A stretch of 36,034 nt of DNA from Pseudonocardiales bacterium. GTDB taxonomy: Bacteria > Actinomycetota > Actinomycetes > Mycobacteriales > Jatrophihabitantaceae. Both the position numbers and the translations under genes were made by a program. The DNA is taken from positions 1 through 36,034 of the forward strand of contig JAVEET010000219.1 of the NCBI GenBank assembly GCA_030840295.1, in the 5' to 3' direction. The notes below the pieces were generated by a model, which did not search any database, was not told where the DNA came from, and saw nothing but the letters and a program-made list of their open reading frames with translations. Of the stretch, positions 1 to 12,276 are shown in pieces (position 1 is the first letter of the stretch; the number at the start of each line of letters is the position of its first letter).

Positions 1-107
1 TCAGCGAGCTCGTTCGTCAGTCGGCGGCCATCCTTGAGGATGAACTCTTCCTCGTCCAGGTCGAGGTCGGGTCCGATCACGTACTCAGTCTTCGTCTTTC
101 TCGCCAT
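1..107 (-). CDS. Ribbon-helix-helix (CopG/BrnA-like) antitoxin, N-terminal part, cut by window edge
   Basis: An open frame starts at an ATG (105-107) with a strong purine-rich ribosome site (AAAGGGG) upstream and runs off the left edge, giving 35 residues. The peptide contains GPDLDLDEEEF followed by LKDGRRLTNELA. That pattern is familiar from actinobacterial CopG-type antitoxins, which begin with a GPD-D-LD acidic stretch, then a D-GRR-T segment before the DNA-binding ribbon-helix-helix; recognition is from memory of the family. The start lies inside the 3' end of the upstream integrase-remnant frame (overlap 85-107), as expected where a toxin gene overlapped its antitoxin. The ribbon-helix-helix itself would lie outside the window, so the assignment is tentative. 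Confidence 0.5.
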   Translation of the reverse strand, partial: MARKTKTEYVIGPDLDLDEEEFILKDGRRLTNELA

Positions 108-576
108 CGCCCTGCCCCTTTCTGAACTCGGTCGGCATCGCGTGAATGACGGCCAGCGTCTCAGGCTTTCGGTCGTCCGGCACTGCAAACAACGCCGACA
201 GCGCCGCATCGTCGAGGATCGGCACTGCCTGCTCGGGAACCGAGGGCGGGCTCATCCGCTCCATCGGCGAGCGAGCGATCTCACCGTCGTCGGTCAGCCA
301 CTTGAAGGGCTGTAGCAACGAGCGGTAGTGCTTGGCCACCGTGGCCGGCGAGAGGCCGCGGTCGCGCATGTCGGCGAGATACTGCTCGACTGCTCGCGAG
401 CGACCGTTGCAGCCTGGTCCGGCCCCGTTGGCGACCATGTATTCGGTGAACGACTCCCCCACCGACAGGTAGGACGCGATGGTGGCCAGCGACCGACCAC
501 GGGCCCGCAGAGAGATCCGCCAGTCGGGCAGCAGCCCGCTCAGGGGCGCCAAAGCGGGCAATTTGAGCTTCGGCAT
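85..576 (-). pseudogene. Tyrosine integrase remnant lacking the catalytic domain, possibly fused to the tail of a toxin gene
   Basis: The 163-residue frame from the ATG at 576 (an upstream GTG at 603 is also possible) matches only the N-terminal SAM-like core-binding domain of a phage-type tyrosine recombinase. It shares the segment [10 protein letters not shown] with the full integrase at 11154-12065, and both continue with a proline-rich linker of the P-VPE--VP type. Similarity stops where the catalytic domain should begin (about residue 133, ALSALFAVPDD). No catalytic Arg, HxxR or Tyr follows. The last 25 residues (KPETLAVIHAMPTEFR onward) resemble the C-terminus of small toxins that precede antitoxins like the one at 1-107. 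I infer an in-frame deletion joining the two. It sits beside the 47-bp attachment repeat at 660-706, in the same arrangement as the intact integrase beside 12198-12244. It cannot recombine DNA by itself. Confidence 0.75.
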
Positions 577-583
577 ACATGAA

Positions 584-603
584 GTGTTACCCGTCTGTAA
601 CAC
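584..603. promoter_or_regulatory. Perfect 7-bp inverted repeat at the integrase-remnant start
   Basis: GTGTTAC and GTAACAC are perfect inverted copies separated by 6 bases. They lie just upstream of the remnant integrase's probable start codon at 576. The position suits an operator for an autoregulator or excisionase. This is inference from symmetry and position only. Confidence 0.4.
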
Positions 604-659
604 CGATATGCGGGATCGCAGACCTCTGTAGATAAGCCAGATACCCTTATTCCAACTGA

Positions 660-706
660 GATTGTGGGGCGGGTCGGGCTCGAACCGACGACCCAGGGAT
701 TATGAG
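660..706. repeat. Distal attachment site (47-bp displaced tRNA 3' half)
   Basis: This 47-bp stretch is identical to 12198-12244; the flanking bases 659 and 707 differ from their counterparts. It covers the tRNA discriminator base, acceptor 3' strand, T arm, variable loop and anticodon arm up to the anticodon, but the 5' half of the tRNA is missing, so it cannot encode a tRNA. It is the crossover copy left at the element end farthest from the functional tRNA. It also forms the junction with the neighbouring element remnant to its left. Confidence 0.92.
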
Positions 707-822
707 GCCTGTTGCGTTAAGCGGTGTGCGTACCCCCTGCAACCCAGGGGCTACGGGCCATGTCCGCGAGCGTGAATCGCACAATCCTGTGCGTTTCGAG
801 GCCCACCAAGGGAGGCAACACA

Positions 823-1017
823 ATGAGCGTAACAGCGCACGACGACAGCAATCTCGTTTCGATCCGCGCGGAAGGCGGCCCCGATCCCGAGGGCGTCTAC
901 GTGCAGGCGGAGATGTACGTCGAGATGCAGAGCGGCGGGCAGTCCTTGCGGCTGACCAAGGCCGACGCCACCGCGATGGGCACGCGGCTGCTTGAGGAAG
1001 CGGCCCGACTGCCCTAG
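823..1017 (+). CDS. Small hypothetical protein of the mobile element (64 aa)
   Basis: The ATG at 823 follows a strong ribosome site (AGGGAGG at about 809-815), which decides the start over upstream in-frame alternatives. The 64-residue product is acidic. It has a central segment rich in Glu, Tyr, Val and Met (about residues 23-36) and a C-terminal Leu/Ala helix ending EEAARLP. I recognise no domain. It is the first of two plus-strand genes at the distal end of the element, opposite in direction to the main gene train, and is followed 83 bp later by an HTH gene. A regulatory or accessory role is possible but unsupported. Confidence 0.65.
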   Translation: MSVTAHDDSNLVSIRAEGGPDPEGVYVQAEMYVEMQSGGQSLRLTKADATAMGTRLLEEAARLP

Positions 1018-1100
1018 CCGCCCGACCAGCCCCGGCTGGTGTTTGCCGCACCAGCTCGGGGCCTGTACCGCACCCCTAAATCTGAGTTAGGAGAACGATC

Positions 1101-1451
1101 ATGAACGTATCGTACGAGCAGACACCGACAACATCGCTCACCACAATGGAGGCCGGCCGGGCGCTTGGCATGGCACCGAGCACCGTCCGCCGCTGGATCC
1201 AAACTGGCGGGATAGCCGCGGACAAGATCAGCAGCAACGGTGGCCACCCGCGCTACCGCGTCACGACAGCGGCCGTGGACGGCATCATCCATTGGCGCCG
1301 GGAACACTCCCAGGACGCGCACCTTTGGCGGTTGCGTCAGGCCGCCGAAGCGAAAGCAGCTAGCGGCGGCGCGAAGCTCAGCGCGCACGAGCGCAGGTCG
1401 CTGACTCATCCCCGGTTCGAGCGGAGCGCCCTAACCTGCTGTAAGGGGTGA
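1101..1451 (+). CDS. MerR/excisionase-type helix-turn-helix protein
   Basis: The 116-residue protein starts at an ATG preceded by AGGAGAA. Residues 12-60 form a MerR-like winged HTH: SLTTMEAGRALGMAPSTVRRW gives the two helices of the HTH, and the wing ends in GGHPRYRV, the signature of the DNA-contacting loop in this fold. The remainder is basic and Ala-rich with no effector-binding domain, so it is not a classical MerR sensor. It resembles the small DNA-bending or repressor proteins of phages and AICEs. It lies on the strand opposite the main operon and at the other end from the second HTH gene (10337-10573). It is therefore a candidate regulator of the satellite's lysogeny or excision decision. 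That role is inferred. Confidence 0.8.
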   Translation: MNVSYEQTPTTSLTTMEAGRALGMAPSTVRRWIQTGGIAADKISSNGGHPRYRVTTAAVDGIIHWRREHSQDAHLWRLRQAAEAKAASGGAKLSAHERRSLTHPRFERSALTCCKG

Positions 1452-1495
1452 CAAGACTGTAACGCCGCCAACCGGCGCTAAGGGGCTACGGTCTC

Positions 1496-1543
1496 CCACA
1501 AGCGCCCCCCACCCTTGTGGTCCCCCGCCCGAGGAAACGGGGG
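1496..1543. terminator. Two stem-loops between convergent genes
   Basis: CCACAAG/CTTGTGG (1496-1502 with 1514-1520) and CCCCCG/CGGGGG (1522-1527 with 1538-1543) form two adjacent hairpins in the 105-bp gap between the stops of the plus-strand HTH gene and the minus-strand tape measure gene. There is no clear T-run. The location suggests bidirectional termination. Confidence 0.45.
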
Positions 1544-1556
1544 CGCGAGGTGGGCA

Positions 1557-4500
1557 CTACAAACCCCTGCGGCGCAGCGCCTCGATCAATTGGTCAAAGG
1601 ACTCGTCCACCGCGTCACGGACAGCTGTTTTCACGGACGACGGGTCAGCGTTGTCGCCAAAGGCAACGCTGACTTGGACAGCGCCGGGGTGGACCACCAC
1701 CGGCCCCGCACCACCGCCGGATGCGCCCGGACCCCCGCCGGTGACCCGGGCCATTACGTCCGCTGACGAGCCGGTGTGCAGCGTCACCAGATCGGTCACG
1801 TCCTGCATCAGCATTTCCAGCCCCGGCATCGCGCCCCGAATCCCGTTCTGCAGACCGGCCATGATGGCCTTGCCTTCATCGACCAGCAGGACCTTATCCT
1901 TCTCGATCGGACCCTTCAAGGCCTTGATCTTGCCGGCGATGCCGCTGATGGTGGAGAACAACCCGCCCAGCATGGACGTGATGCCGCTGATGAACCCTTG
2001 GATCACGGCCTGGCCGGCACCGAACAGCAGACTGCCCAGGTTGCCCAACGCCGACACGATCTGGCCCGGCAGCGCCCTGATCAGCCCCAGCACAGTGGAG
2101 ATCCCCGACTGGATGGCTGACACCAGTTGACTCATGGCGGTCTTGACTGCGGTCACGATGGCGTTCCAGGCGGAGATGAAGATCGACTTGATGGTGTTGA
2201 GCGCGCTGGTGATGAAGGACTGCACTGCCGCCATAGCTGTCTGGATCACGCCGCGAATGGTGTTCCAGATGGTTGCGGTGAAAGCGGAAATGGCGGACCA
2301 CACGGTCTGCCACAGTGCCCGGACAGCGTTCAGCCCGGCGGTCAGCAGCGCTTGGATCGCGGCCCAGGTGGTTTGGATGACGGTCCGGATAGCGTTCCAC
2401 ACGGTGGTGGTGATCAGTTGGATCGCGGACCACACGGTCTGCCAGATAACCCGGATGGCGTTGAGGATTGTGGTGATCAGAGCCTGGATTGCCGTCATGG
2501 CCACGGTGATCACGGTCCGGATCAGGTTGATCTGGGTGACGGTGATCTGGGCGATGGCCGCCCAGAACGTGGTCCAGATGGTGCGGACCAGGTTGATGAA
2601 CGTGGTGATGATCGTCTGGATCGACTGGACGGCCACAGTGACCACGGTGCGGATCGTGTTCCAGGTGGTGGTGATGATGGTGACCACGGAGGCCCACACA
2701 GTGGTCCAGATGGTGCGGATCACGGTCAGCCCCGTGGTGATCGCGGTCTGCACGATCTGAATGGCGGTGGTTACCACTGTGCGGATGACGCTCCAGGCCG
2801 CGGTGACGATGGGGGCCAGGGAGTTCCACGCCACCGTCCACAGGGTGCGGATCACCGTCAATGCGACCGTGATCAGGCTTTGGACGGTGCTGATCCCCAC
2901 CTGAACCGCTGCACGGATAGCGGTCCATACAGCGGATACCACGGTGGTCAGGACGGTCCAGTTGGTGGTCCACATGGTGCGGATGGCCGCGAGCACGGTG
3001 GTGATCACCGTCCGGACGGCGTTCAGCCCGGCGGTCACCACCGGGGCGAGCGCTGCCCACAGGGCGTTCCAGATTTGCCTTATGGCCGCGAGGGGTGCGG
3101 CGAAGATCGCGCTGAGTGCCGCCAACTGGGCTCGGATGGTGGCCATGATGACGGACCAGACAGCGGAGAACACAGCCATCAGCCCGGACCACACGGTGCG
3201 CCACGCGGTTGCGATGGCAGCACCGATGGGGGCGAATACGCTGGCTACCTGGCCCAGCGCAGTCCTGATCGCGTTCATGATCAGTCCCCACACGGCGGAG
3301 AACACCGCGGTCAGGCCCGCCCACGCGGTGCGCCAGGCCAGCGCCAGCATCCCGCCCAGGGCCTGGAACAAGCCCAGGATGATCAGCAGCGCGCCTCGGA
3401 TGATTCCCTGGATTTCGGTCCAGGTCCCGGCGAGGATCATCCCCAGCCCCTGCCAGACCTTGCCCCAGTCCCCGGCGATCAGGGCCAGCACCACCTGGAT
3501 GATTCCCCGGATCACCTGTAGGGCACCGGAGACCATCCCGCTGATCACAGCCCAAACCCCGCGGACGATGGTTTCCATCGCGGGCCAGGTGGCGTTCCAG
3601 ACGGCCAGGATCACCTGCAGTGAGGCGACGATCAGCACGCCCATAATGGCCAGGGCCACCTTGACGGCGGTCACGATGTTGTTGAACGCGGCCACCACGG
3701 TGGGCCACATCCCCTGCGCCCATGTGATCATCTTCTGGCCCTCGGACACGAAGAACGCCACCACCACACCCCAGGCTTGGCGAAGCGCGTCCCACACGGC
3801 GCGGGCGGCGGCACCGAACCCGGCGATCACCCCCTGGATCCCGGACAGGCTGGAGGCGATGCTGGGGTCGCGGAACGCGGCCACCAGCAGGTTCCAGCCG
3901 GCCACGATGGCGTTGACCACGGGCATGATCCGGGCCACCATGCTCTGGATGAACCCGACGATTGCCGAGACCACTTGGTTGGTGATGTCCCGGATCCCGA
4001 GGAAGTTGGTGGCGTAGGCCACGGCGAAGAAGGCCACCGCGGCGATCACAATCGCGAACACTCCGACGATGGCGAGCAGCGCCGCGCCGGTGATGCCCAG
4101 GATCGGCACAGTCGCGGCCATGAACGTAGTCAGGACCGACCAGGCCCCGATCAGCAGCAGCACCGGCCCGACCAGAGCCGCTACACCGACGAACGCGCCG
4201 ATGGCGGCCAGTACCGGGCCGGGCAGCCTGGAGAACCACGTGATCAGGTCAGCAAGGCCCAGGGCGATAGCGCGGATGGCGGGCAGCAGCAGCATGCCCA
4301 ACCGGATGGCCACGGTTTCCACGGTTGATCTCAGGGCGTCCAGCGCACCTTTCGCGCCCATGTTGTAAGCGGCGGCCAGTTTTTGAGCCGCACCGACTTC
4401 GCCCACCTTCTGCGCCATGGTGTTGTAGGCGTCAGCCCCGCCCATGATCACCACACGGGCGGCGCGGATGGCGTCCGAGCCGAAGATGGTTTTCAGCGCG

Positions 4501-5360
4501 GCGTCCTGCTGGGCCGGGGACAAACCGCGCAGCGCGTTGGTGAACTGCCCGATGATGGCGGGCATCGGCAGCATATTGCCGTGACTGTCCCGGACGTTGA
4601 TCCCCAGATCGTTCATCACCTTGGCCGCGGTCTGGGTGGGTGCCTGCAGGCTGGACAGCATCGTCTTCAGCGACGTACCCGCGTCCGAGCCCCGGATGCC
4701 GGCGTTGGCCATCAGCGCCAGGGACGTGACCATATCGTTCACGTTCATCCCCGCAGCCGCGAAGGATGAGCCAGCGGCTTGCATGCCCAGGCCCAGGTCC
4801 TGGACGGACGCGCTGGAAGCATTCGCGCCCGCGGCCAGCATGTCGGCCACCGCTGTGGCCTGGCTGCCGGCCAGGTGGAACACGTTCAGGGCGTTACCGG
4901 CGATGGTGGCCGCGTCAGCGACCGAGATCTGACCGGCGGCGGCCAGCATCAGCACACCCCGCGCCGCGGTCATGGAGTCGTTGACGGACAGGCCGGACTT
5001 GGCCAACTCCAGCATGGCCACCCCGGCGTCCCGAGCGGACACCCCGGGAATGCTCACGTCCGCACCTAACTGCAGGGCGGTCTGGGACATCTGCTGCATC
5101 TGCGCCGAGGTGGCCCCGGTGGTGGCTTGCAACACCTGCATGGTCTGCTGGTAATTCGCGGCCAGCACCACCGCGCCGGCTGCAGCGGCCACCACCGGGA
5201 CGGTAATGCCCAGCGTCATCGCCGCACCGACACCCATCAAGCTGGACCCCGCGGCGGCGGTCTGCTGGACAGCGGAGTTGACGCGACCGAGCCCGGTCTC
5301 AGCCTGGACAGTGTCGGCCATCACTTCCACCATCAGCATGGCAGCCGTCAATCCTGGCAT
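1557..5360 (-). CDS. Phage tail tape measure protein
   Basis: The 1267-residue protein starts at an ATG 7 bases after GGAAGG. Residues ~55-280 match the TP901-type PhageMin_Tail core (Ala/Gly-rich, with segments such as VSARDAGVAMLELAKSGLS, GIRGSDAGTSLKTMLSSL and LSPAQQDAALKTIFGSDAIRA). Residues ~350-460 are strongly hydrophobic, a typical tape-measure membrane region. Residues 793-1100 form seven 44-residue repeats, each opening with (I/V)(R/K)xx(W/F) and a second Trp four residues later. 44 is four times 11, a hendecad helical period, and a 33-residue unit precedes them. The C-terminus holds a Gly-rich linker and an acidic helix. In tailed phages this protein sets tail length and aids genome delivery. 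Here it is the last gene of the operon and no other tail gene is present, so it probably assembles into a helper phage's tail; that is inference. Confidence 0.93.
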   Translation of the reverse strand: MPGLTAAMLMVEVMADTVQAETGLGRVNSAVQQTAAAGSSLMGVGAAMTLGITVPVVAAAAGAVVLAANYQQTMQVLQATTGATSAQMQQMSQTALQLGADVSIPGVSARDAGVAMLELAKSGLSVNDSMTAARGVLMLAAAGQISVADAATIAGNALNVFHLAGSQATAVADMLAAGANASSASVQDLGLGMQAAGSSFAAAGMNVNDMVTSLALMANAGIRGSDAGTSLKTMLSSLQAPTQTAAKVMNDLGINVRDSHGNMLPMPAIIGQFTNALRGLSPAQQDAALKTIFGSDAIRAARVVIMGGADAYNTMAQKVGEVGAAQKLAAAYNMGAKGALDALRSTVETVAIRLGMLLLPAIRAIALGLADLITWFSRLPGPVLAAIGAFVGVAALVGPVLLLIGAWSVLTTFMAATVPILGITGAALLAIVGVFAIVIAAVAFFAVAYATNFLGIRDITNQVVSAIVGFIQSMVARIMPVVNAIVAGWNLLVAAFRDPSIASSLSGIQGVIAGFGAAARAVWDALRQAWGVVVAFFVSEGQKMITWAQGMWPTVVAAFNNIVTAVKVALAIMGVLIVASLQVILAVWNATWPAMETIVRGVWAVISGMVSGALQVIRGIIQVVLALIAGDWGKVWQGLGMILAGTWTEIQGIIRGALLIILGLFQALGGMLALAWRTAWAGLTAVFSAVWGLIMNAIRTALGQVASVFAPIGAAIATAWRTVWSGLMAVFSAVWSVIMATIRAQLAALSAIFAAPLAAIRQIWNALWAALAPVVTAGLNAVRTVITTVLAAIRTMWTTNWTVLTTVVSAVWTAIRAAVQVGISTVQSLITVALTVIRTLWTVAWNSLAPIVTAAWSVIRTVVTTAIQIVQTAITTGLTVIRTIWTTVWASVVTIITTTWNTIRTVVTVAVQSIQTIITTFINLVRTIWTTFWAAIAQITVTQINLIRTVITVAMTAIQALITTILNAIRVIWQTVWSAIQLITTTVWNAIRTVIQTTWAAIQALLTAGLNAVRALWQTVWSAISAFTATIWNTIRGVIQTAMAAVQSFITSALNTIKSIFISAWNAIVTAVKTAMSQLVSAIQSGISTVLGLIRALPGQIVSALGNLGSLLFGAGQAVIQGFISGITSMLGGLFSTISGIAGKIKALKGPIEKDKVLLVDEGKAIMAGLQNGIRGAMPGLEMLMQDVTDLVTLHTGSSADVMARVTGGGPGASGGGAGPVVVHPGAVQVSVAFGDNADPSSVKTAVRDAVDESFDQLIEALRRRGL
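2061..2984 (-). repeat. Seven 132-bp (44-codon) repeats inside the tape measure gene
   Basis: The units start at residues 793, 837, 881, 925, 969, 1013 and 1057 with no change in spacing. DNA copies are diverged but keep recurring motifs such as GTGCGGAT and GCGTTCCA. Constant spacing despite divergence implies selection on length and helical register. Unit gain or loss would change the predicted tail length in steps of 44 residues. Confidence 0.85.
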
Positions 5361-5586
5361 GGTGCGACCTTCCGGGGTGCAGGTGCGAACTCTTGATTGT
5401 CCGACAGCTTCGGGGGAAACGGCGGAGAGGACACGCGCAAATGCTGTGAATAGCAGGCCGGCCCGGTCGGCGCAGGCGGGTCAACGGCGGGAAAGGAGGA
5501 CCGCCTCGAACGCCTTGCTTCGCCGCGCAGACGGTCCCATGGCGATCCCGCGGGGCGCGAGTTTGACGCTGCCGGGCCGGCCCAGA

Positions 5587-7071
5587 TCATGCGGCGGACC
5601 TCGCGCTGGGGACACGCTTCGGGGCGCGGCACTGCGGACAGCGGATCGTGCTGCCCGGCTTGGCCATCGTGGTCCACCGATGCGAGCAGTGAGAGCACCC
5701 GACTGGCGTGCCCCGCCCCGGGTCGCCGGGCGGCGCATCGCAGACATCGGCGGTCACGGTGCGCATGTGTTCGGCCGTGTGTTCATATGATTTCGCGTCT
5801 ATGGGCGGTGTTGAACACATGGTTTGGCGTGTGTCAGCCTGCAGGATGTCCAGCCGCTCGTCGTACTCGGTGAAACCGGAACGGCCTTCGGCTGCGATCT
5901 CGGCGGCCCTTGCTGGGGAGATGTGAGCCAGTTGCACCCGCTCGAATTCGCCGGTCTCATCCACCACGGCCCGGCCGGCGACAGGTTCCACGGCCGGCGG
6001 CTGCCGGTCGCCGAACATCATCGTGGACAAGGCCACGTCGAGCTTGCCGCACGCCAGTTTGAACCCGAACTGTGCGCGGCCCTCGGTGCCGCTGGTGACG
6101 GTCGCGTTGGGCTGCTGGCAGCCCTCGACCACATGCAGGTCAGCGGCGCGGGCCTGGCGTAGCACGGTGGACAACGCCGACAAGGCCGGCGGCTGCCCGT
6201 TCACACCTCGAGGTTTCGTCTCCGACCAATCCTGCTTGACCGCGCCGACGAAATCCGCGCCCTCATCGATGATCAGCAGCCGACGAGGGCCGGTGGTGCC
6301 TTCCCGGTACCGCCGATCCATCTCGGCCTTGAAATCGCACACCACGCGCGCCATATCGGCGGCCGATGTCCAGACCCGCACATTGGGCAAGGCCAGGAAC
6401 TCATCGAAATCGTTGGACCGCTTGGCGTCGATGATGTCCACGATCGCGTCCGCTCTGCCGGCCTGGTGGGCCACGATGGCACGCAGCGCGGTGGTCTTAC
6501 CGGAGCCGGTACGCCCAGCGACGAGCGCATGCGGCTGGTCCGGCCGGGCTAGCTGCCAATACAGCGTCCGGCCGTCCCCATGCACCCCGAGCGGCACCCG
6601 GTCCCGACCGCCGGCCAACAGATCCTCGAACGCAACCAGGTCCGGCAGCACCCGCGGCGGAGCCTCCCGGACGAACGTCAGCCGATCGTGCAGGGCGTCA
6701 TGCTGCGCGCGCCACGTACCGCCGGCCAGGGCGTGGATCGTGCTGGCCAGCGTTTCCACCTTCGCAGCGGTCGGCACGAAGCTGCGGGGACAGCGCAACG
6801 CGATGGTTGTTCCGGTGGCCTGATCGTCCCGCGGCCACTGCACGAAACTGCCGGGCTCATCCGTGTCGCCGTAGCCGAGCACGGCGCGGGCCTTGGCCGC
6901 AAGCGACCGCGCGGCGGCGGTGCGGCGGAGGAAGCGCCGACGCACCCCACCCCACCCGAAGCGGTACAGGACCGCCACCGCGACCAAGGCCAGGCCGATC
7001 CAGGTCAGATGAGCGGCCAGCCATGTGACCACGGTCAGCACGGTGACGGGCCGGCCCGATCCTAGGATCAC
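5587..7071 (-). CDS. FtsK/SpoIIIE-type DNA translocase (TraB/TraSA-like) with zinc ribbon
   Basis: The 494-residue protein starts at a GTG directly abutting the TAG stop of the upstream gene, so the two are translationally coupled. Residues ~10-37 are one or two membrane segments. The motor domain carries Walker A GRTGSGKTT (186-194) and Walker B LLIIDE (265-270). The C-terminus has Cys459, Cys462, Cys478 and Cys481 spaced as a zinc ribbon. Proteins of this class are hexameric ATPases that move double-stranded DNA; in AICEs and Streptomyces plasmids they alone drive conjugal transfer. There is no FtsK gamma domain and no relaxase gene. In this element it lies between the small terminase block and the tape measure gene. 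It could serve conjugation-like transfer or DNA handling during helper infection; the sequence does not decide. Confidence 0.88.
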   Translation of the reverse strand: MILGSGRPVTVLTVVTWLAAHLTWIGLALVAVAVLYRFGWGGVRRRFLRRTAAARSLAAKARAVLGYGDTDEPGSFVQWPRDDQATGTTIALRCPRSFVPTAAKVETLASTIHALAGGTWRAQHDALHDRLTFVREAPPRVLPDLVAFEDLLAGGRDRVPLGVHGDGRTLYWQLARPDQPHALVAGRTGSGKTTALRAIVAHQAGRADAIVDIIDAKRSNDFDEFLALPNVRVWTSAADMARVVCDFKAEMDRRYREGTTGPRRLLIIDEGADFVGAVKQDWSETKPRGVNGQPPALSALSTVLRQARAADLHVVEGCQQPNATVTSGTEGRAQFGFKLACGKLDVALSTMMFGDRQPPAVEPVAGRAVVDETGEFERVQLAHISPARAAEIAAEGRSGFTEYDERLDILQADTRQTMCSTPPIDAKSYEHTAEHMRTVTADVCDAPPGDPGRGTPVGCSHCSHRWTTMAKPGSTIRCPQCRAPKRVPSARSAA

Positions 7072-7932
7072 CTAGAGCCGCCCGGCGATGCGGTGATTCC
7101 CATACGCTTCCGGCGGCACCGGCTGCGGACCGAGCAGATCAGCGCTGCCGGGCGTCATCGGCCGGGCGACCCGGTTCCCGTATTTCTTCATCCATTGCTC
7201 GTCGCGTTCCTCCGCCGTCCCGACCCACGGCTGAGCCCCTGAGCTCACCAGGAACGCCAACCGCTGGCGAGGTCCCGCCGGGAACGGGGAGTAGGTGCTC
7301 TGGTGCCGACCGGGCCACATCCCGCCGTACAGTTGCTCCAAATTCAGCACCTCCGCGAACTCGTCCTGGACGTCGAGCTCGACGTGATTAGCGACCAGCA
7401 CGGCCTGGGCGCGGCGGATGAGGCCGTAACGCTCGGCCAGCTTGTCGAACGCGATGGCGGCATTGCGGTGCTTCGCCTCGGCCCTCAATAACTGGGCGTC
7501 GGAGAAATCAGCCACGGCCTCGAAGGCGTCGAGATGTTTGGTCGCTTCGGCAAGCACTTCATCGAGTGCAGGCCGCAGGGCGGCCTCGATCACTTCGGCG
7601 TTACGGATGGCCGACGCCAACCTGTTCTGAGCCTGGCCCAGCGCTTCCTCATGCGCCGACAGCCAGATCTCCCGAGCCTCCAGGGCGCGCGTCTCAATGC
7701 ACACCACATCCGATGTTGGCCAAGCTTCGCCGGACATGGACGCCTCCACGATGTCCCGAATCAGGGTCTCTCGTGCGCCGGCCGGATCAGCCGGCGGCAT
7801 CGGAGGCTCAGCCCGTTCCAACCGCCCCAGGGCATCCCGCGCCTGCAGCACAGAATCCCCCAGCTTGTACGCGCCAGCGTCGTGGCCCGCCAGCACCGCG
7901 GACAACTTGTTCAATTCGCTGCTTCTTCGCAT
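7072..7932 (-). CDS. Unrecognised coiled-coil-rich protein of the mobile element (286 aa)
   Basis: A strong ribosome site (AAAGGAG) precedes the ATG. The protein is mostly helical by eye: residues ~75-190 are rich in Ala, Glu, Leu and Arg without Pro, consistent with a long coiled coil (for example NRLASAIRNAEVIEAALRP). The last ~85 residues are Gly/Pro/Trp-rich and look less regular (LYGGMWPGRHQSTYSPF and later). No signal peptide, membrane segment or nucleotide-binding motif is visible. It lies between the small terminase (38-bp gap) and the FtsK-type gene (abutting). The context suggests a partner in DNA packaging or transfer, such as an adaptor or a scaffold-modifying factor, but I do not recognise the family. 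Confidence 0.8.
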   Translation of the reverse strand: MRRSSELNKLSAVLAGHDAGAYKLGDSVLQARDALGRLERAEPPMPPADPAGARETLIRDIVEASMSGEAWPTSDVVCIETRALEAREIWLSAHEEALGQAQNRLASAIRNAEVIEAALRPALDEVLAEATKHLDAFEAVADFSDAQLLRAEAKHRNAAIAFDKLAERYGLIRRAQAVLVANHVELDVQDEFAEVLNLEQLYGGMWPGRHQSTYSPFPAGPRQRLAFLVSSGAQPWVGTAEERDEQWMKKYGNRVARPMTPGSADLLGPQPVPPEAYGNHRIAGRL

Positions 7933-7970
7933 TGGCGTTTCTCCTTTGAATCATGGTTGATTGACGATTA

Positions 7971-8462
7971 CTAGCTGAGCAGGCGGCGCGGATCGTGGGG
8001 GTTGTGAGGGTCCGTTGGTGAGACGTGTAGGGCGGCCCGGTCGGACGGATTCATCCCGAACCTGCCGCCAATGGTCGTGATCAACTGGGCCGACTCACGG
8101 GCAATCGTCCAGCTCGGGTTTTTCGACAGCCGCGTCAACGCCGTGCCGTCCGCCAACACCCGGTACACGGACACGCTCGCCGTACCGTTCTCGGCCAGAT
8201 CAGCCATGGCCACCCGGTTGATTTCGAGAACCTCGCACAGAAGGCCGAAGGTGTCCACGTCCCAGCTGGTCAAAACGTTTTGAGTGATCAAATCCGGCGC
8301 CAACCGCGCCCAATGCACCTTCGCCGGCTCCGACAGCGACGACGGACACACGACATCGGCCGCGCTGGGTTGAGGCTCGTCCCTGTTGATCCGGGACGGC
8401 CTGGTCTCCCCGTGCAGCAGCCGAAGGGCGGTTGGCATCGGCGCCGGTCCGCGCTTAGCCAT
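7971..8462 (-). CDS. terS: Phage terminase small subunit, P27 family
   Basis: The 163-residue product begins MAKRGPAPMPTALRLLHGE, the usual opening of P27-family small terminases. It continues with a CPSSLSEPAKVHWARLAPDL segment, a helix around WDVDTFGLLCEVL, and the NPSWTIARESAQLI / GRFGMNPSDRAAL segment typical of the family's end. The ATG at 8462 is chosen because it follows AGGGG and matches family starts; an in-frame ATG at 8534 has no ribosome site. TerS recognises the packaging site on phage DNA and hands it to the large subunit TerL. No TerL is encoded here. Satellites such as SaPIs use their own TerS to redirect a helper's TerL and capsids to satellite DNA, and I infer the same role. 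Confidence 0.88.
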   Translation of the reverse strand: MAKRGPAPMPTALRLLHGETRPSRINRDEPQPSAADVVCPSSLSEPAKVHWARLAPDLITQNVLTSWDVDTFGLLCEVLEINRVAMADLAENGTASVSVYRVLADGTALTRLSKNPSWTIARESAQLITTIGGRFGMNPSDRAALHVSPTDPHNPHDPRRLLS

Positions 8463-8591
8463 GCCGATCACCCCTGGGGCGAATTCGAAAAACTTGTCTG
8501 CACCCAGACGCACTTGGGGGGCAGTCATGGCCATATCGGACGTAGGGGGTCATGCCCCACCCCTCGCGTGGACTGACGTGGTGGTTGGTGA

Positions 8592-8771
8592 TCACGCGGC
8601 GTCGTCTCCGTTCGGCGTCTCGTCAGAGTTGCTGGTGTCCGCGGGATCGTCCGTCGATGGGGCAGCGCCGAACAGACGGCGCGCGTGGTCCTCTTGTTGC
8701 TGGCGGCGGCGTTCGAGGTGGCCACGGATGAAGGTGCGCATCCCGTCCGCGGCGGGCGTGTCGTTGGTCAT
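8592..8771 (-). CDS. Tiny hydrophilic protein of the mobile element (59 aa)
   Basis: The ATG (8769-8771) follows a strong ribosome site (AGGAGG, 5 bases upstream) and overlaps the stop of the upstream tiny gene in an ATGA junction, which supports real translation. The product has a basic, Gln/Arg-rich helix (residues ~12-33, including RGHLERRRQQQEDHARRLF) followed by an acidic, Asp/Ser/Thr-rich disordered tail ending NGDDAA. No family is recognised. A basic helix with an acidic tail would suit a nucleic-acid- or protein-binding accessory factor; this is a guess from composition. Confidence 0.7.
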   Translation of the reverse strand: MTNDTPAADGMRTFIRGHLERRRQQQEDHARRLFGAAPSTDDPADTSNSDETPNGDDAA

Positions 8772-8938
8772 TGGTCCTCCTGTGATGTGGTCGGTTGTGC
8801 TGGTTCGTCACCGGGCCAGCGGATCTCGCTAGCGGCGGCCTGGCGCTTCGGCTCAGCCCGTTCCCGTGCGCAAGCTCGGCAGCCCCGGCCGCGCCAGGTG
8901 ACGGTGTGGGTCGGATGGTCCCGGCAGACGAAGGCCAT
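8768..8938 (-). CDS. Tiny zinc-finger-like protein of the mobile element (56 aa)
   Basis: The frame from the ATG at 8936-8938 starts just after the stop of the replication gene (stop at 8942) and ends in an ATGA overlap with the next gene. The product contains Cys5-x2-His8 and Cys20-x2-Cys23, a plausible single zinc-binding knuckle, with aromatic and basic residues between (TVTWRGRG). Small Cys-rich proteins of this kind are common beside replication genes in actinobacterial phages and integrative elements. The ribosome site is weak (AGGGG), consistent with expression by coupling to the upstream gene. Function is unknown. Confidence 0.65.
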   Translation of the reverse strand: MAFVCRDHPTHTVTWRGRGCRACARERAEPKRQAAASEIRWPGDEPAQPTTSQEDQ

Positions 8939-8941
8939 TCG

Positions 8942-9715
8942 TCACCAGCCCCTGACTGGCCGCGCAACAGGGCTCAGCTCCGGCCGGCCGGTGTTGCGCT
9001 CGGGCAGCGGGTCGTCCTCCCAGCTACAGCGGTCCAGCCATGTGGCGGGGTGTGGAATGAATTCACGCTCGGGCAAGTTCGGATCGTCTCGATAGCGGCG
9101 AGCCGCGTCCAAGATCGTTTCGGCTGGAGTGCCCTTCTGAATCGCTTGGGCGAATGCAGTTTTGGCGCTGCCTTTCGCCTCGCGTCTGGGGTACGTGTCC
9201 CAAAACTCAGCGAAGGGATCTGAATCTGTGATCGGCTCGCGCGCTGCACCATGCTCCATGCCACCTGCTACATGCCACATGCTTAGCGTGCTCTTTTTTG
9301 CGTCCGGCTCGGATTCGTCTGCGCCTCGCTCAGATTCGTTTGCGTCCGGCTCGGATTCGTCTGCGCCTCGCTCAGATTCGTTCGGCGATGGTAGGCGAGA
9401 AGGGACCTTCGCTGGTTCGAGTCGCTGATGTTTCGCCAGCTTCGGCAAGAACAAATACACCGCGTTCCGCACTCGGTATCGGTGCGCCTTGCCTGCCTCG
9501 ATCAAGCAGTCGAGCATCTTCTCGATGTCTCCCGCGGTCAGGTCGTCGTCGTAAGCGAACAGCTGACCTTTCACGTACCGCGGATCACCTTGCAGCCGCC
9601 CGTGTTCGTCGGCCAGCCCCCACAGTCCGATGTACAACAGGCGGATGTCGCGGCTCAAGAGGGTGATCTCCTGATCGGCGAAAAACTCGGGCTTCACTGA
9701 TCGCATCCTCGACAT
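8942..9715 (-). CDS. Phage replisome organiser-like replication protein
   Basis: The 257-residue protein starts with MSRMRSVKPEFFADQEI. Its ATG shares one base with the upstream stop (TGATG). Residues ~1-100 are a winged-HTH-like domain (LLYIGLWGLADEHGRLQGDPRYVK, then DLTAGDIEKMLDCL) seen in phage replication initiators. A disordered linker contains a duplicated 14-residue unit. The last ~70 residues (FWDTYPRREAKGSAKTAFAQ to HPATWLDRCSWEDDP) match the DnaT/DnaD-like tail that recruits host helicase or loader in many phage initiators. It probably binds the element's origin and loads the host replisome. Plasmid-type RepSA or a primase is absent. This supports a phage-style replication strategy. 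Confidence 0.8.
   Translation of the reverse strand: MSRMRSVKPEFFADQEITLLSRDIRLLYIGLWGLADEHGRLQGDPRYVKGQLFAYDDDLTAGDIEKMLDCLIEAGKAHRYRVRNAVYLFLPKLAKHQRLEPAKVPSRLPSPNESERGADESEPDANESERGADESEPDAKKSTLSMWHVAGGMEHGAAREPITDSDPFAEFWDTYPRREAKGSAKTAFAQAIQKGTPAETILDAARRYRDDPNLPEREFIPHPATWLDRCSWEDDPLPERNTGRPELSPVARPVRGW
9300..9383. repeat. 42-bp tandem duplication in the replication gene
   Basis: Two copies (9300-9341 and 9342-9383) differ only in their final base. They keep the reading frame and encode two 14-residue units of the acidic pattern NESERGADESEPDA in the linker between the two domains of the replication protein. Near identity indicates recent duplication. Confidence 0.9.
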
Positions 9716-10080
9716 CAGGCACCACCGTCCGAAGATTGCTCGATGCCGCGCCACAGGCGAAGTAATCGGCCGTCTATAGGCGAGATCACCGCGCCGATGC
9801 ACTCGATCTTGCGGGCCTTCCGCGCGCCAGCCAGCAAGGCACCCCAACGGCAAGGATGGTCAGCCGGCAGCCCGACCAGTTCTTGGATCCGGTCGGCTGT
9901 GAAGGGCTGACCGGTCAGTGCCAGATGATCGATCGCGGACATGGTGACCGACCGAAACCAGGAGTCGGCGCGTTCCAGAGCCAGGTCCGGGCCAGTGGAG
10001 GTTAGACTTTGGTCTGTTGTTGTCGGGTGGTTCGGGTGGCGGTTTCTGTGGTGGGAGCCGCCCCTACCCGGCGGACTCAT
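9715..10080 (-). CDS. Small phage-type winged-helix protein (121 aa)
   Basis: The ATG at 10080 follows GGGGAG and overlaps the upstream stop (ATGA). Residues ~38-115 read as a compact domain with a SAIDHLALTGQPFTADRIQELVGLPADHP opening and a GRLLRLWRG ending. Actinobacteriophages carry a family of short proteins with the same plan: a helix, a G-PFTADD element, P-HPN-WG, an Ala-rich helix and a terminal V-VW strand. They sit near replication and regulation genes. A DNA-binding role is likely from the fold pattern but the specific job is unknown. The first ~35 residues are basic and probably disordered. Confidence 0.7.
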   Translation of the reverse strand: MSPPGRGGSHHRNRHPNHPTTTDQSLTSTGPDLALERADSWFRSVTMSAIDHLALTGQPFTADRIQELVGLPADHPCRWGALLAGARKARKIECIGAVISPIDGRLLRLWRGIEQSSDGGA

Positions 10081-10340
10081 CTCGACTCCCCGACTTGTGC
10101 TCGACGCCTTCGCGCCTGAGCCGACCGGAGCGCGAGGCCCGTGAAATAGGCCCGACGCGCCTGCTCAGCTCGCCGCACTCGGTCCTCCGGGGCCAGAACG
10201 CCAGCTGGATCGACTTCCTTCTCGAAGCGGGCCATAGATGCTTTCCGCGCGGGTGCGGTGTGCTGGGTTTCGTCCGCGACACGGGAATGCATCACCAGGG
10301 CGGCGCGGCGGGCGTGCATCGAACGTTCAGCTGGCGTCAC
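10077..10340 (-). CDS. Conserved small basic helical protein of actinobacterial elements (87 aa)
   Basis: The frame starts in an ATGA overlap with the upstream HTH gene and ends in another ATGA overlap with the next gene, so it is embedded in a coupled operon. The sequence includes ARKASMARFEKEVDPAGVLAPEDRVRRAEQARRAYFTGLALRSAQARRRR. This pattern (FE-EVDP-GVL-PEER-RRAE-AR-A-F--LAL-S--AR) recurs as a hypothetical protein in many actinobacterial phages and plasmids. It is likely all-helical and basic. A competing frame on the same strand (10064-10282) has no such pattern and was discarded. Function is unknown. Confidence 0.75.
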   Translation of the reverse strand: MTPAERSMHARRAALVMHSRVADETQHTAPARKASMARFEKEVDPAGVLAPEDRVRRAEQARRAYFTGLALRSAQARRRRAQVGESR

Positions 10341-10573
10341 CTCGCACCGCCGGGAACCATCGGCTGTTGGATCATGGAAATGATCTGCGCCCGTCGCACG
10401 AGAATGGTTCGAGGGCCGATCTTGTAGCCGTCAATCACTCCGGCCTTCGCCCAACGTCCGATCGTTTCCGGGCTCTTGCCTACCAGCCGGCCCGCTTCCC
10501 TCAGCGGGATTAGCTCCGCCTCTGCAACGGATGCCTGATCGTCTTGGCGCGCGACCACCGCGGCCTCGCACAT
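10337..10573 (-). CDS. xis: Excisionase-like helix-turn-helix protein
   Basis: The chosen ATG at 10573 (MCEAAVVARQ) has GAAGGA at good spacing; an in-frame ATG six codons upstream (10591) has no clear ribosome site. Residues ~20-65 form an excisionase/HTH_17 domain: LIPLREAGRLVGKSPETIGRWAKAG is the HTH, followed by GYKIGPRTILVRR as the wing. Xis proteins of this size bend DNA at attachment sites so that the tyrosine integrase excises the element. Here the gene leads the minus-strand operon, separated from the integrase gene by the regulatory region and one plus-strand gene. It could also act as the operon's regulator. Confidence 0.8.
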   Translation of the reverse strand: MCEAAVVARQDDQASVAEAELIPLREAGRLVGKSPETIGRWAKAGVIDGYKIGPRTILVRRAQIISMIQQPMVPGGAR

Positions 10574-10630
10574 GGTTTGTCCTTCGGCCATACTGGACCC
10601 GGCCCCTTCTCTGGTTGGGGTTTTCGAGAC

Positions 10631-10677
10631 GGACCCGGTGCGCTTTCGTTCTTCCCGGAAGTAGGCGCACCGGGTCC
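10631..10677. promoter_or_regulatory. Perfect 13-bp inverted repeat upstream of the satellite operon
   Basis: GGACCCGGTGCGC (10631-10643) and GCGCACCGGGTCC (10665-10677) are perfect inverted copies with a 21-base spacer. A third half-copy GGACCCGG lies at 10595-10602, next to the first operon gene. Half-sites spaced in this way upstream of the leading gene suit a repressor operator or a structured leader. Confidence 0.55.
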
Positions 10678-10745
10678 GCTAGTGAGTTTGACGCGAGTCG
10701 ATCGTATATGGCGTCTGCAGGTACCGCAGGAAACGACGCGCGCGA

Positions 10746-10771
10746 GAATCCCCTTTTAAATAAGGGGATTC
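10746..10771. promoter_or_regulatory. AT-centred perfect 10-bp palindrome, candidate origin or operator
   Basis: GAATCCCCTT and AAGGGGATTC are perfect inverted copies around TTAAAT. The central ten bases are all A/T, a striking exception in this GC-rich element. It lies 10 bp from an iteron array. An easily melted core next to iterons is the usual layout of a satellite or plasmid origin; an operator is the alternative. Confidence 0.5.
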
Positions 10772-10781
10772 ACCGCTAGAG

Positions 10782-10831
10782 ACCGAGCTAGGCCGAGGGA
10801 CGCCGAGCTAGGCCGAGCTACGCCGAAGCGT
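10782..10831. repeat. Five 10-bp iterons, candidate replication origin
   Basis: Five contiguous 10-bp units follow the consensus GCCGAGCTAG: units 1, 3 and 4 are near identical, units 2 and 5 are degenerate. The period of one DNA turn places each unit on the same face, as in iterons bound by replication initiators. The array lies in the only sizeable gene-free stretch (10592-10873) inside the element. Confidence 0.6.
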
Positions 10832-10873
10832 CGTTCCTAGACCTGCTGGGGTTGAACCTGACAAGATCATCCG

Positions 10874-11140
10874 ATGGACGAATACAAGCTCGAAATTTGG
10901 ACGCGGGGCGCAACCGAACCGGTGACCGTGGTGATGCCGGATGAGCCAGGAGCGAGCTCGCGAGATCGCTTTCACGGCGTCTGCGATGCCGTCGAAATCG
11001 GCAGAGCATCGGGCGCTGCGCTGCGCTATGTAACTTGGCAAGACGTGGGGCCTGGGGGCGGCTTTACGATTGACCCCGCGGACACCATCGAGGTCAAGCT
11101 GATAGGGCCAGATGGTGAAGAAAGCAGGACCTTCGACTAG
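10874..11140 (+). CDS. Hypothetical acidic protein of the mobile element (88 aa)
   Basis: The 88-residue frame begins at an ATG with only a weak ribosome site. The predicted protein is mixed alpha/beta by eye: strand-like stretches YKLEIWTRG, VTVVMPD, LRYVTWQDV and TIEVKLIGP, with acidic charge overall. It contains no membrane segment or known motif. It is transcribed away from the regulatory region and converges with the integrase gene (stops 13 bp apart). Its position between the candidate origin and the integrase suggests early or lysogenic expression. I do not recognise the family. Confidence 0.55.
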   Translation: MDEYKLEIWTRGATEPVTVVMPDEPGASSRDRFHGVCDAVEIGRASGAALRYVTWQDVGPGGGFTIDPADTIEVKLIGPDGEESRTFD

Positions 11141-11153
11141 TTGCGGCCCGAAG

Positions 11154-12065
11154 CTATAGCTTGTCGCCCAGGCCCAGGCGTCGGTGCGCGTCCCGGGCGC
11201 GCTCGTCAGCGGCGCTGGCCGCGTACCGGCCGACCATCTGCCTCGACTTCCAGCCCGCCAGCCGCATCAGGTCGTTCTCCTGACCGCCGGCCTGGAGCCA
11301 GGTGTGAGCGAAGGTGTGCCGGAACTGGTGCGGGTGCAAGTGGCCCAGGCCGGCCAGCTTGGCCCGGCGGTCCAACATCATCTTCAGTGCCTCGAACTTG
11401 AGCGGACCGAGGCGGCCCAGCCACAGTTCCGGCCGGTCGGCATACGGGTGCCGCCTGCGGGCTCGCAGATAGTTGCGCAGGGCCTTGCGGGTCTCCAGCC
11501 CGAACGGTACGGCCCTCAGGCGGCGGCCTTTGCCCATGACCACGGCGACGTCCTGCTCGAAATCGAGATCGGTCAGGGCGATGCCCATCAGCTCCGAGCG
11601 GCGGATACCGCAGTCGAGCAGCAGGCGGATCATCGCCGTGTCGCGGACCTCGGTGAACCGGGTGCCCTTGCACGCGGCGAGCAGCTTGCGCACATCCTCG
11701 GAGCTGATGACCGGCACAGGTTTCTCCGGCACCGCGGGCGGACGCATCTTGATGAACGGACTCAGTGCGATCACATCGGAGTCGGCCAGGAAGCGGAACA
11801 GCTGCTGGAGGGACCGGTAGTGCTTCGCCACGGTCGCGGCGCTGATGGTCGGCCGGTCCGACATCTCGGCGAAGAAGTTCTCCAGCTCGACGCGGCCGAT
11901 GTCCTGCACCAGGGTGGACCGCTCGGTGCGGATCAGGAACGCCAGCAGCTCCCGCCCACATTTGAGGTAGGACTCGATGGTGGACGGCGCGCGGTTGAGC
12001 GACCGTAGGTGCGTGGTCCAGTCGGACAGGTACTCGCTCAGGTCATCAAGATCTATGTCGGCCAT
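11154..12065 (-). CDS. int: Tyrosine recombinase (site-specific integrase)
   Basis: The 303-residue protein starts at ATG 12065 ([13 protein letters not shown]), preceded by GGAG; the frame is open further upstream but without support. Residues 8-100 are the SAM-like core-binding domain and 115-300 the catalytic domain. Catalytic residues are visible: Arg155 (GIRRSEL), Lys179 (MGKGRR), His246 and Arg249 (HQFRH), Trp272 (GW) and nucleophile Tyr281 (GRYA). It integrates the element into the 3' half of the adjacent tRNA. Its start is 133 bp from the 47-bp att repeat, the classic layout. It is homologous to the broken integrase at 85-576, and each lies beside a copy of the same att core. Confidence 0.95.
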
Positions 12066-12129
12066 GATCCATCTCCGAAACGGCCCGCGAAGAGGCTCTT
12101 GCGCCCTCCGCCATCTTGTGACAATACTA

Positions 12130-12159
12130 TGCACTATGAGCGCTGTGCGGGATAGTGCA
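12130..12159. promoter_or_regulatory. 8-bp inverted repeat upstream of int
   Basis: TGCACTAT (12130-12137) and ATAGTGCA (12152-12159) are perfect inverted copies with a 14-base spacer, between the integrase start and the att repeat. They could be a binding site for Xis, integrase arms or a repressor. A different palindrome occupies a similar place next to the integrase remnant (584-603). Confidence 0.4.
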
Positions 12160-12197
12160 ACACCGGCCCAGGGCAATGTAGGCCAGGAAATGCCTGG

Positions 12198-12244
12198 GAT
12201 TGTGGGGCGGGTCGGGCTCGAACCGACGACCCAGGGATTATGAG
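12198..12244. repeat. tRNA-proximal attachment site (47 bp)
   Basis: This copy is identical to 660-706. It includes the tRNA from the discriminator base (12203) through the anticodon (12240-12242). Element DNA begins to its left. The offset between the copies is 11,538 bp, which is the predicted size of the excised circle. Confidence 0.92.
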
Positions 12245-12276
12245 TCCCCTGCTCTAACCAGCTGAGCTACCGCCCC
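12203..12276 (-). tRNA. tRNA with CAT anticodon (elongator Met or lysidine-type Ile)
   Basis: The cloverleaf is complete on the minus strand. The 7-bp acceptor stem is GGGGCGG with CCGCCCC, followed by discriminator A; the D arm holds AGCTCAGCTGGTTAGAGC; the anticodon stem is GGGGA with TCCCT around loop CTCATAA (anticodon CAT); the T arm is GTCGG/CCGAC with loop TTCGAGC. The sequence has no initiator-type features, so it is elongator tRNA-Met or the tRNA-Ile that needs TilS; the anticodon stem resembles the Ile type. No CCA is encoded. Its 3' half is the element's integration site. Confidence 0.93.

Follow-up and report, generated by a model that had tools for sequence, protein, structure and literature searches.

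In the well-studied phage satellites, tails were thought to be taken whole from the helper, and the phage-inducible chromosomal island (PICI)-like elements (PLEs) of Vibrio cholerae are one family that substitutes the tape measure. In 2026, satellite tape measures forming chimeric tails were demonstrated for PLE: the PLE tape measure was found in particles, a difference of 95 residues went with tails shortened by 10 nm, and transduction fell by 96-99.9% without tmp (PMC12987554). No other satellite had previously been reported to encode a tape measure, according to the same study, which lists putative ones in PLE-like elements and capsid-forming PICIs (cf-PICIs) (Extended Data Fig. 10, cf-PICI sampling; PMC12987554). 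In Actinobacteria, a prophage survey merely suspected small elements to be satellites (PMC10023795). Here we analysed a stretch of 36,034 nucleotides (the window), which is the entire contig C147 of a 4.65-Mb draft genome of a Pseudonocardiales bacterium in 375 contigs. It contains an integrated element of about 11.6 kb whose largest gene, at 1557-5360, encodes a tape measure protein. We consider it moderately probable that the element is a PICI-like actinobacterial phage satellite supplying its own tape measure for chimeric tails built on helper parts.

The element is like PLE1, PLE4 and PLE11 in its satellite-encoded tape measure of a length unlike the phage's. Chimeric tails, demonstrated for PLE, are proposed for the element by analogy. 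The phage exploited by PLE is ICP1, which is lytic and has a contractile tail, and every PLE variant encodes a chaperone, some also a hub protein, whereas the element resides in an actinobacterial host and has a siphophage-type tape measure, a terminase small subunit gene (terS), an FtsK-like gene and no recognisable chaperone. Staphylococcus aureus pathogenicity islands (SaPIs) are near 12 kb, with an integrase (int), an excisionase (xis), a replication initiator, terS, a specific attachment site and no capsid genes. The element resembles SaPIs and other Gram-positive PICIs in all of these respects; no tape measure is reported for them in the literature searched. cf-PICIs make their own capsids; the element in the window has no capsid gene, and two of the related satellites described below (L064 and L080) have capsid genes. 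The Mulch and Flayer satellites of Streptomyces are also actinobacterial phage satellites and reportedly encode encapsidation genes; the text of that paper is without the words 'tape measure' (PMC10690885). Actinomycete integrative and conjugative elements (AICEs) have int, xis, rep and an FtsK-like gene adjoining a tRNA, as the element does, and differ from it with respect to terS, the tape measure and the phage-type replication protein. A limited literature search yielded no description of actinobacterial tape-measure satellites, and the element is apparently an undescribed actinobacterial counterpart of PLE, probably unrelated to it.

The gene at 1557-5360 is a minus-strand open reading frame (ORF) of 1267 amino acids (aa) with zero internal stops. 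A Shine-Dalgarno-like GGAAGG lies directly 5' of its ATG, and its GC fractions at the three codon positions (0.60/0.50/0.87) are coding-like. Its product matches TIGR01760 (tape_meas_TP901) with 196 bits (cut-off 28.8), PF10145 with E=1.8e-48 and 165.6 bits (cut-off 33.2), and numerous PHROG tape-measure families; it is a tape measure protein of the TP901/PF10145 family. The initial annotation had described this largest gene as a full tape measure filling a third of the element, which the profiles and the coordinates (33% of 11.6 kb) confirm. It had also found the tail otherwise unrepresented, and this too stands: searches with Pfam, PHROGs and NCBIfam recognised no capsid, portal, terminase large subunit (TerL), tail tube or baseplate gene in the element, and hidden Markov models (HMMs) of tail chaperones and major tail proteins, built from actinophage cassettes, had zero matches across the window. 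The parts of the gene are listed below, where L174 denotes a phage contig discussed in the next paragraph.

1557..5360, minus strand: tape measure protein, 1267 aa (TIGR01760, PF10145, PHROGs)
4479..5084, minus strand: PF10145 domain of the tape measure, residues 93-294 (profile match)
2250..3281, minus strand: central 44-residue tryptophan repeats, about residues 694-1037 (alignment with L174)
1566..2252, minus strand: C-terminal part of the tape measure, about residues 1037-1265 (main blocks 56-60% identical to L174)

Searching viral contigs with the single tape measure sequence gave no match; only an alignment-based scan of IMG/VR retrieved two phages, L174 and L175, whose tape measures sit in tail cassettes of ordinary layout and match that of the element over its whole length. 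Identity between the L174 and element proteins is 68% across residues 2-471, ungapped, 54% across the next 223 residues and about 58% in the C-terminal 165 residues; in the comparison of ends made for both phages, the N end of L174 scores 73%. The L174 tape measure, from a 21.6-kb metagenome contig, has 1895 residues against 1267 in the element, and nearly all of its 628 additional residues lie among the repeats and further on towards the C terminus. The 44-residue tryptophan period is common to both proteins, with 11 W-x3-W motifs in the element's tape measure versus 23 in that of L174. In L175, a 62.6-kb phage, the tape measure has 1676 residues and is 55% identical at the N end and 56% at the C end; this phage also carries a P27-type small terminase (TerS), only remotely similar to the satellite TerS. 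Among the remaining 18 close viral matches listed, C-terminal similarity was at most 36%.

Next, we searched 399 genomes of the order for PF10145 and read the surroundings of all 60 loci, which were classed by the count of phage structural families that they share after gene calling and clustering. Thirty-six loci share 3-21 such families, 21 (the window included) share 0-1 and 3 are ambiguous; single assignments may be wrong because genes were called with a simple script and loci were classed by the families they share. Small tape-measure elements thus account for about a third of the PF10145 loci in this order. The low-family group contains recombinases, excisionases, primases and terminase subunits, with a recombinase within the stretch read in at least 16 of the 21 loci. 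No tail tube was recognised in any of these 21, and capsid genes are present in some (a protease and a major head protein in L064, a major head protein in L080). A scan of named genomes, seeded mostly with satellite tape measures and hence biased, added 74 loci: 27 have 0-1 phage families and a recombinase within the stretch read, and 26 have at least 4 phage families, with a recombinase in the stretch in none of the 26. Satellite hosts include Klenkia marina, Blastococcus, Modestobacter, Arthrobacter, Microbacterium, Actinoplanes and Actinotalea.

Some individual elements are clear-cut. L159 of Arthrobacter pascens DSM 20545 is a 10.7-kb element lying exactly between dprA and comM, and it consists of a serine recombinase, an excisionase, a primase-helicase, three small unknown ORFs, a homologue of the element's protein p286 and a tape measure of 1325 residues. 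The order in L122 of Microbacterium azadirachtae is integrase, excisionase, primase, terS, chaperone and tape measure. Furthermore, about twenty satellites and no phage locus encode a 216-aa protein family (F9) a short distance upstream of the tape measure. A 350-aa satellite marker family was found in only 4 of 115 genomes of its host family, a number too small for testing selection. Profile comparison of the p286, 216-aa and 350-aa families revealed no detectable relationship among them.

We then compared substitution patterns. Between the element and L174, the N-terminal block has a nonsynonymous divergence (dN) of 0.27 and a synonymous divergence (dS) of 0.92, and by codon position the second is the most conserved (0.81) and the third the least (0.53). 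The resulting dN/dS is about 0.3-0.5, a figure that sums both lineages and in which dS is near-saturated. As dS approaches saturation in distant pairs, near pairs were given more weight. For the satellites L156 and L157 of named Microbacterium strains, dN/dS is 0.05/1.15, to be read cautiously because the L157 gene appears split in two frames; other satellite pairs above two-thirds identity give about 0.14-0.28, and the overall satellite range is 0.04-0.28. In L157 (Microbacterium sp. MYb66, 97-3400) the tape measure is called as two ORFs of 614 and 314 aa that are 93% identical to the intact L156 protein, pointing to a frameshift, real or a sequencing error. As judged from these comparisons, the tape measure gene is under constraint. 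Relaxed selection, with dN/dS near one, had been named in the initial annotation as an outcome that would refute its idea; the values obtained lie below one both against L174 and between satellites.

Related satellites also carry tail chaperones. In six Microbacterium-type satellites, L132, L135, L137, L156, L157 and L161, the chaperone HMM finds one on the upstream side of the tape measure, next to it or nearly so (E 3e-12 to 4e-6); all of these were outside its training set, and the tube HMM has no match in these six. The structure model of the L156 chaperone is confident (predicted local distance difference test score, pLDDT, 90), and its one significant match among viral models is the tail assembly chaperone of Microbacterium phage Footloose (E=4.7e-7). 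A Foldseek search of the PDB with the model gave nothing significant. VIA structural matches, weak individually, are 3klu (YqbN, Z 5.2), 5ir0 (ORF19 of PLE1, the PLE chaperone, Z 3.6) and 2ob9 (HK97 chaperone, Z 3.2). From this modelled structure, the chaperones of other satellites may share their fold with that of PLE1.

A tree of 102 N-terminal domains was used to trace the history of the tape measures. The satellite label changes 25 times on it, at least 13 of these changes being forced by supported branches, and it is no more clustered than in shuffles, with satellites interleaved with phages. In a smaller tree, satellites group among phages from the same host families. One such host family (f16) comprises Modestobacter, Blastococcus, Geodermatophilus and Klenkia, as judged from named duplicates. 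These trees suggest frequent exchange of tape measures between satellites and phages, as would suit a part obliged to match the local helper.

The remaining genes of the element and its boundaries are as follows.

660..706: distal attachment repeat, 47 bp, copy of the 3' part of tRNA-Met (exact match to 12198-12244)
12198..12244: attachment repeat within the tRNA-Met gene (exact 47-bp match)
12202..12276, minus strand: tRNA-Met (CAT), integration target (ARAGORN)
11154..12176, minus strand: tyrosine integrase (PF00589 E=1.8e-29; relative in Actinotalea fermentans satellite L140, E=1.8e-54)
10874..11140, plus strand: unknown 88-aa ORF without NCBIfam match
10337..10591, minus strand: excisionase-like helix-turn-helix protein (HTH_17 E=1.2e-4; phrog_66; TIGR01764 below cut-off)
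10077..10340, minus strand: small protein p87 (weak phrog_2842; homologue in L140, E=5e-20)
9715..10080, minus strand: small protein p121 of the replication region (homologues in satellites L046, 6e-12, L071, 2e-9, L035 and L158)
8942..9715, minus strand: replication initiation protein (phrog_2149 E=3.6e-30 from residue 49)
7971..8534, minus strand: terminase small subunit, P27 type (PF05119 58.7 bits, cut-off 24.7; phrog_83 E=9e-25)
7072..7932, minus strand: p286, unknown, predicted helical (homologue in L159, E=1.3e-17)
5587..7071, minus strand: FtsK/SpoIIIE-like ATPase (PF01580 28.2 bits, cut-off 24)

The exact 47-bp direct repeat delimits the element, and the 88-aa ORF is its sole gene on the opposite strand. 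The integrase and p87 are held in common with L140, where a tape measure is present too. Other replication-initiation PHROGs match the replication protein from residue 47; the listed ORF extends to 9853, and homology begins near 9715. The terminase small subunit, the one packaging gene in the element, scores 40.7 bits against TIGR01558, slightly under the cut-off of 45.6. p286 has a single known homologue, in L159, where it is likewise encoded just upstream of the satellite tape measure; a peptide-pattern search found no relatives of it in viral contigs, and its structure model (pLDDT 54) was too poor for use. Cumulatively, the element has the following marks of a PICI-like element: 1) an integrase, a xis-like gene and att repeats; 2) a length of 11.6 kb, in the 8-20 kb range; and 3) its own replication gene and terS, with genes for a whole virion absent. 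Family searches recognised no PICI regulators (Stl/Str), ppi or cpm, and small unknown genes remain. Just beyond the distal att repeat, at 85-603, lies a truncated tyrosine integrase related to that of the element (E=8e-21), probably the remnant of a second element using the same tRNA site.

Several related loci have features of their own. Seven of them (L034, L035, L047, L071, L080, L084 and L159) were seen by eye to lie repeatedly in a tad pilus locus or at dprA/comM, mostly with serine recombinases. Among these, L080, from the window's genus, is a 9.3-kb element (2375-11720) between comM and dprA with a serine recombinase, a major head protein and a tape measure of 824 aa, without tube or baseplate, and is a candidate minimal capsid-forming satellite. 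A cluster in Mycobacterium interjectum (L125, 6721-16018) contains a major head protein, a 1530-aa tape measure, a 778-aa protein and a TerS-like protein related to the window's TerS (E=5e-7). In L046, L052 and L053, a conserved pair upstream of the tape measure, comprising a head-maturation-protease-like protein (phrog_15531) and a 350-aa coiled-coil-like protein, occurs without a capsid gene and is possibly a capsid-assembly modifier. The C-terminal motif NHYDHVHAD of the L046 tape measure (6661-10626) looks peptidase-domain-like by eye. A large ATPase gene of L122 (12130-13728), OLD-like by eye, lies between the tape measure and the satellite end and is a possible defence cargo.

If the element is a satellite of this kind, it would excise by Int/Xis and replicate via its own initiator, and its own TerS would direct helper packaging of its DNA. 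Its tape measure, expressed and incorporated in dependence on a helper, would serve as the ruler on which the tail chaperone, tube and baseplate proteins of the helper assemble, the chaperone for it coming from the helper. Satellite particles would bear chimeric tails of their own, shorter length, as expected from ends shared with a phage tape measure and a central part with fewer repeats. With 0.105-0.15 nm per residue, the lower value from the PLE scale and the upper one being the rise of an alpha helix, the 628 residues would translate into tails approximately 65-95 nm shorter than an L174-type phage would have. The advantage may be escape from tail-directed interference or a fit to small capsids. 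Matching ends, constraint, recurrence and the PLE precedent support the co-assembly with a helper and own tail length suggested in the initial annotation, whose interpretation is partly supported overall. A changed host range, labelled particles or blocked helper tails, also raised there, may be further effects.

Other roles for the protein are conceivable. It could be a dominant-negative product that poisons or titrates helper tail assembly and is not built into satellite particles. Matching ends would suit such a competitor, and some satellites and prophages are known to carry defences that block the assembly of tails or virions (Tai, PMC11364771; PMC10884400; Rta, PMC12987554). However, these are dedicated defence factors (80 aa in the case of Rta), not tape measures, and both a full-length constrained protein with intact ends and repeats and the co-carriage of chaperones in related satellites fit a building part better than a poison; we judge such a role rather unlikely. 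That the tape measure mainly alters DNA entry or host range through its ends at ejection, with tail length as a by-product, is very improbable, as the ends are conserved with phage L174 and not replaced, although satellites move between hosts and tape measures participate in genome entry (HK97 work, to the extent that it is referenced in PMC11364771).

The nature of the element itself could also be read otherwise. Cryptic prophages are common in actinobacteria (PMC10023795), and a tape measure, being the longest tail gene, is most often noticed, so that the locus might be a shrunken prophage remnant whose last remaining tail gene has no present function. Yet the gene is intact and constrained, and random decay would leave varied tail genes, whereas tens of elements, some of them flanked by intact host genes, carry the same reduced gene set. 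Satellite-only families beside the tape measure, such as F9, also oppose decay, which leaves a remnant unlikely. A further candidate is an AICE-like conjugative element in which terS and the tape measure are cargo or a second transfer mode. The set int-xis-rep-FtsK is the AICE core, and the element has genes of these types; its FtsK-like ATPase has an N-terminal hydrophobic stretch (by eye) and weak similarity to TraB and EccC. Against this, TraB (NF041214) scores 19.6 bits with a cut-off of 800, only the general FtsK_SpoIIIE domain passes, and the replication initiator and TerS are phage-like. No relative of the ATPase was found in the other tape-measure satellites, the one match being in a phage locus; peptide patterns found none in viral or genome contigs, and weak FtsK matches are present in relatives. 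We hold an AICE-like element to be quite improbable.

Several results weigh against a satellite that builds tails on its own tape measure. The FtsK-like gene is unaccounted for by it, and no helper phage was identified for the element. Unlike PLE and the Microbacterium satellites, the element has no tail chaperone recognisable by HMM; a divergent one is conceivable. Satellite tape measures are shorter than that of the nearest phage in 21 of 31 pairs and longer in 10, and a general trend to shorter ones is not significant (sign test p=0.07). The initial annotation had looked to prophages of the same host for tape measures with matching ends and a different number of repeats; matching ends were found in L174 and L175, with a different repeat number in L174, and neither of the two outcomes named there as refuting was seen, with the limit that L174 is a metagenomic phage of unknown host. 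The genome of the window contains a siphophage prophage, L092 and L030 on contigs C110 and C25, which are probably one element split across contigs. The C110 part holds an integrase, a primase, TerS, TerL, a portal, a protease and a major head protein, and the C25 part a 1428-aa tape measure and downstream tail genes. From its genes this prophage is a possible helper, and an unmatched one because its tape measure is only 34% identical to that of the element in the N-terminal domain; its TerS is not recognisably close to the element's either.

A wider reading, on which we are evenly divided, is that tape-measure satellites, small elements differing in recombinase and site, form a large unrecognised class across Actinomycetota that repeatedly acquires the tape measures of local siphophages, some with the chaperone, and builds tails of its own length from helper parts, those of the element being about a third shorter than the tails of the phage with matching ends. 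If this is true, the trick of PLE arose many times in another phylum and is common there, and tape measures that share their ends but differ in length would be available as natural pairs. Two questions would then become testable: why satellites want tails of their own, and what lets chaperone, tube and baseplate recognise a tape measure.

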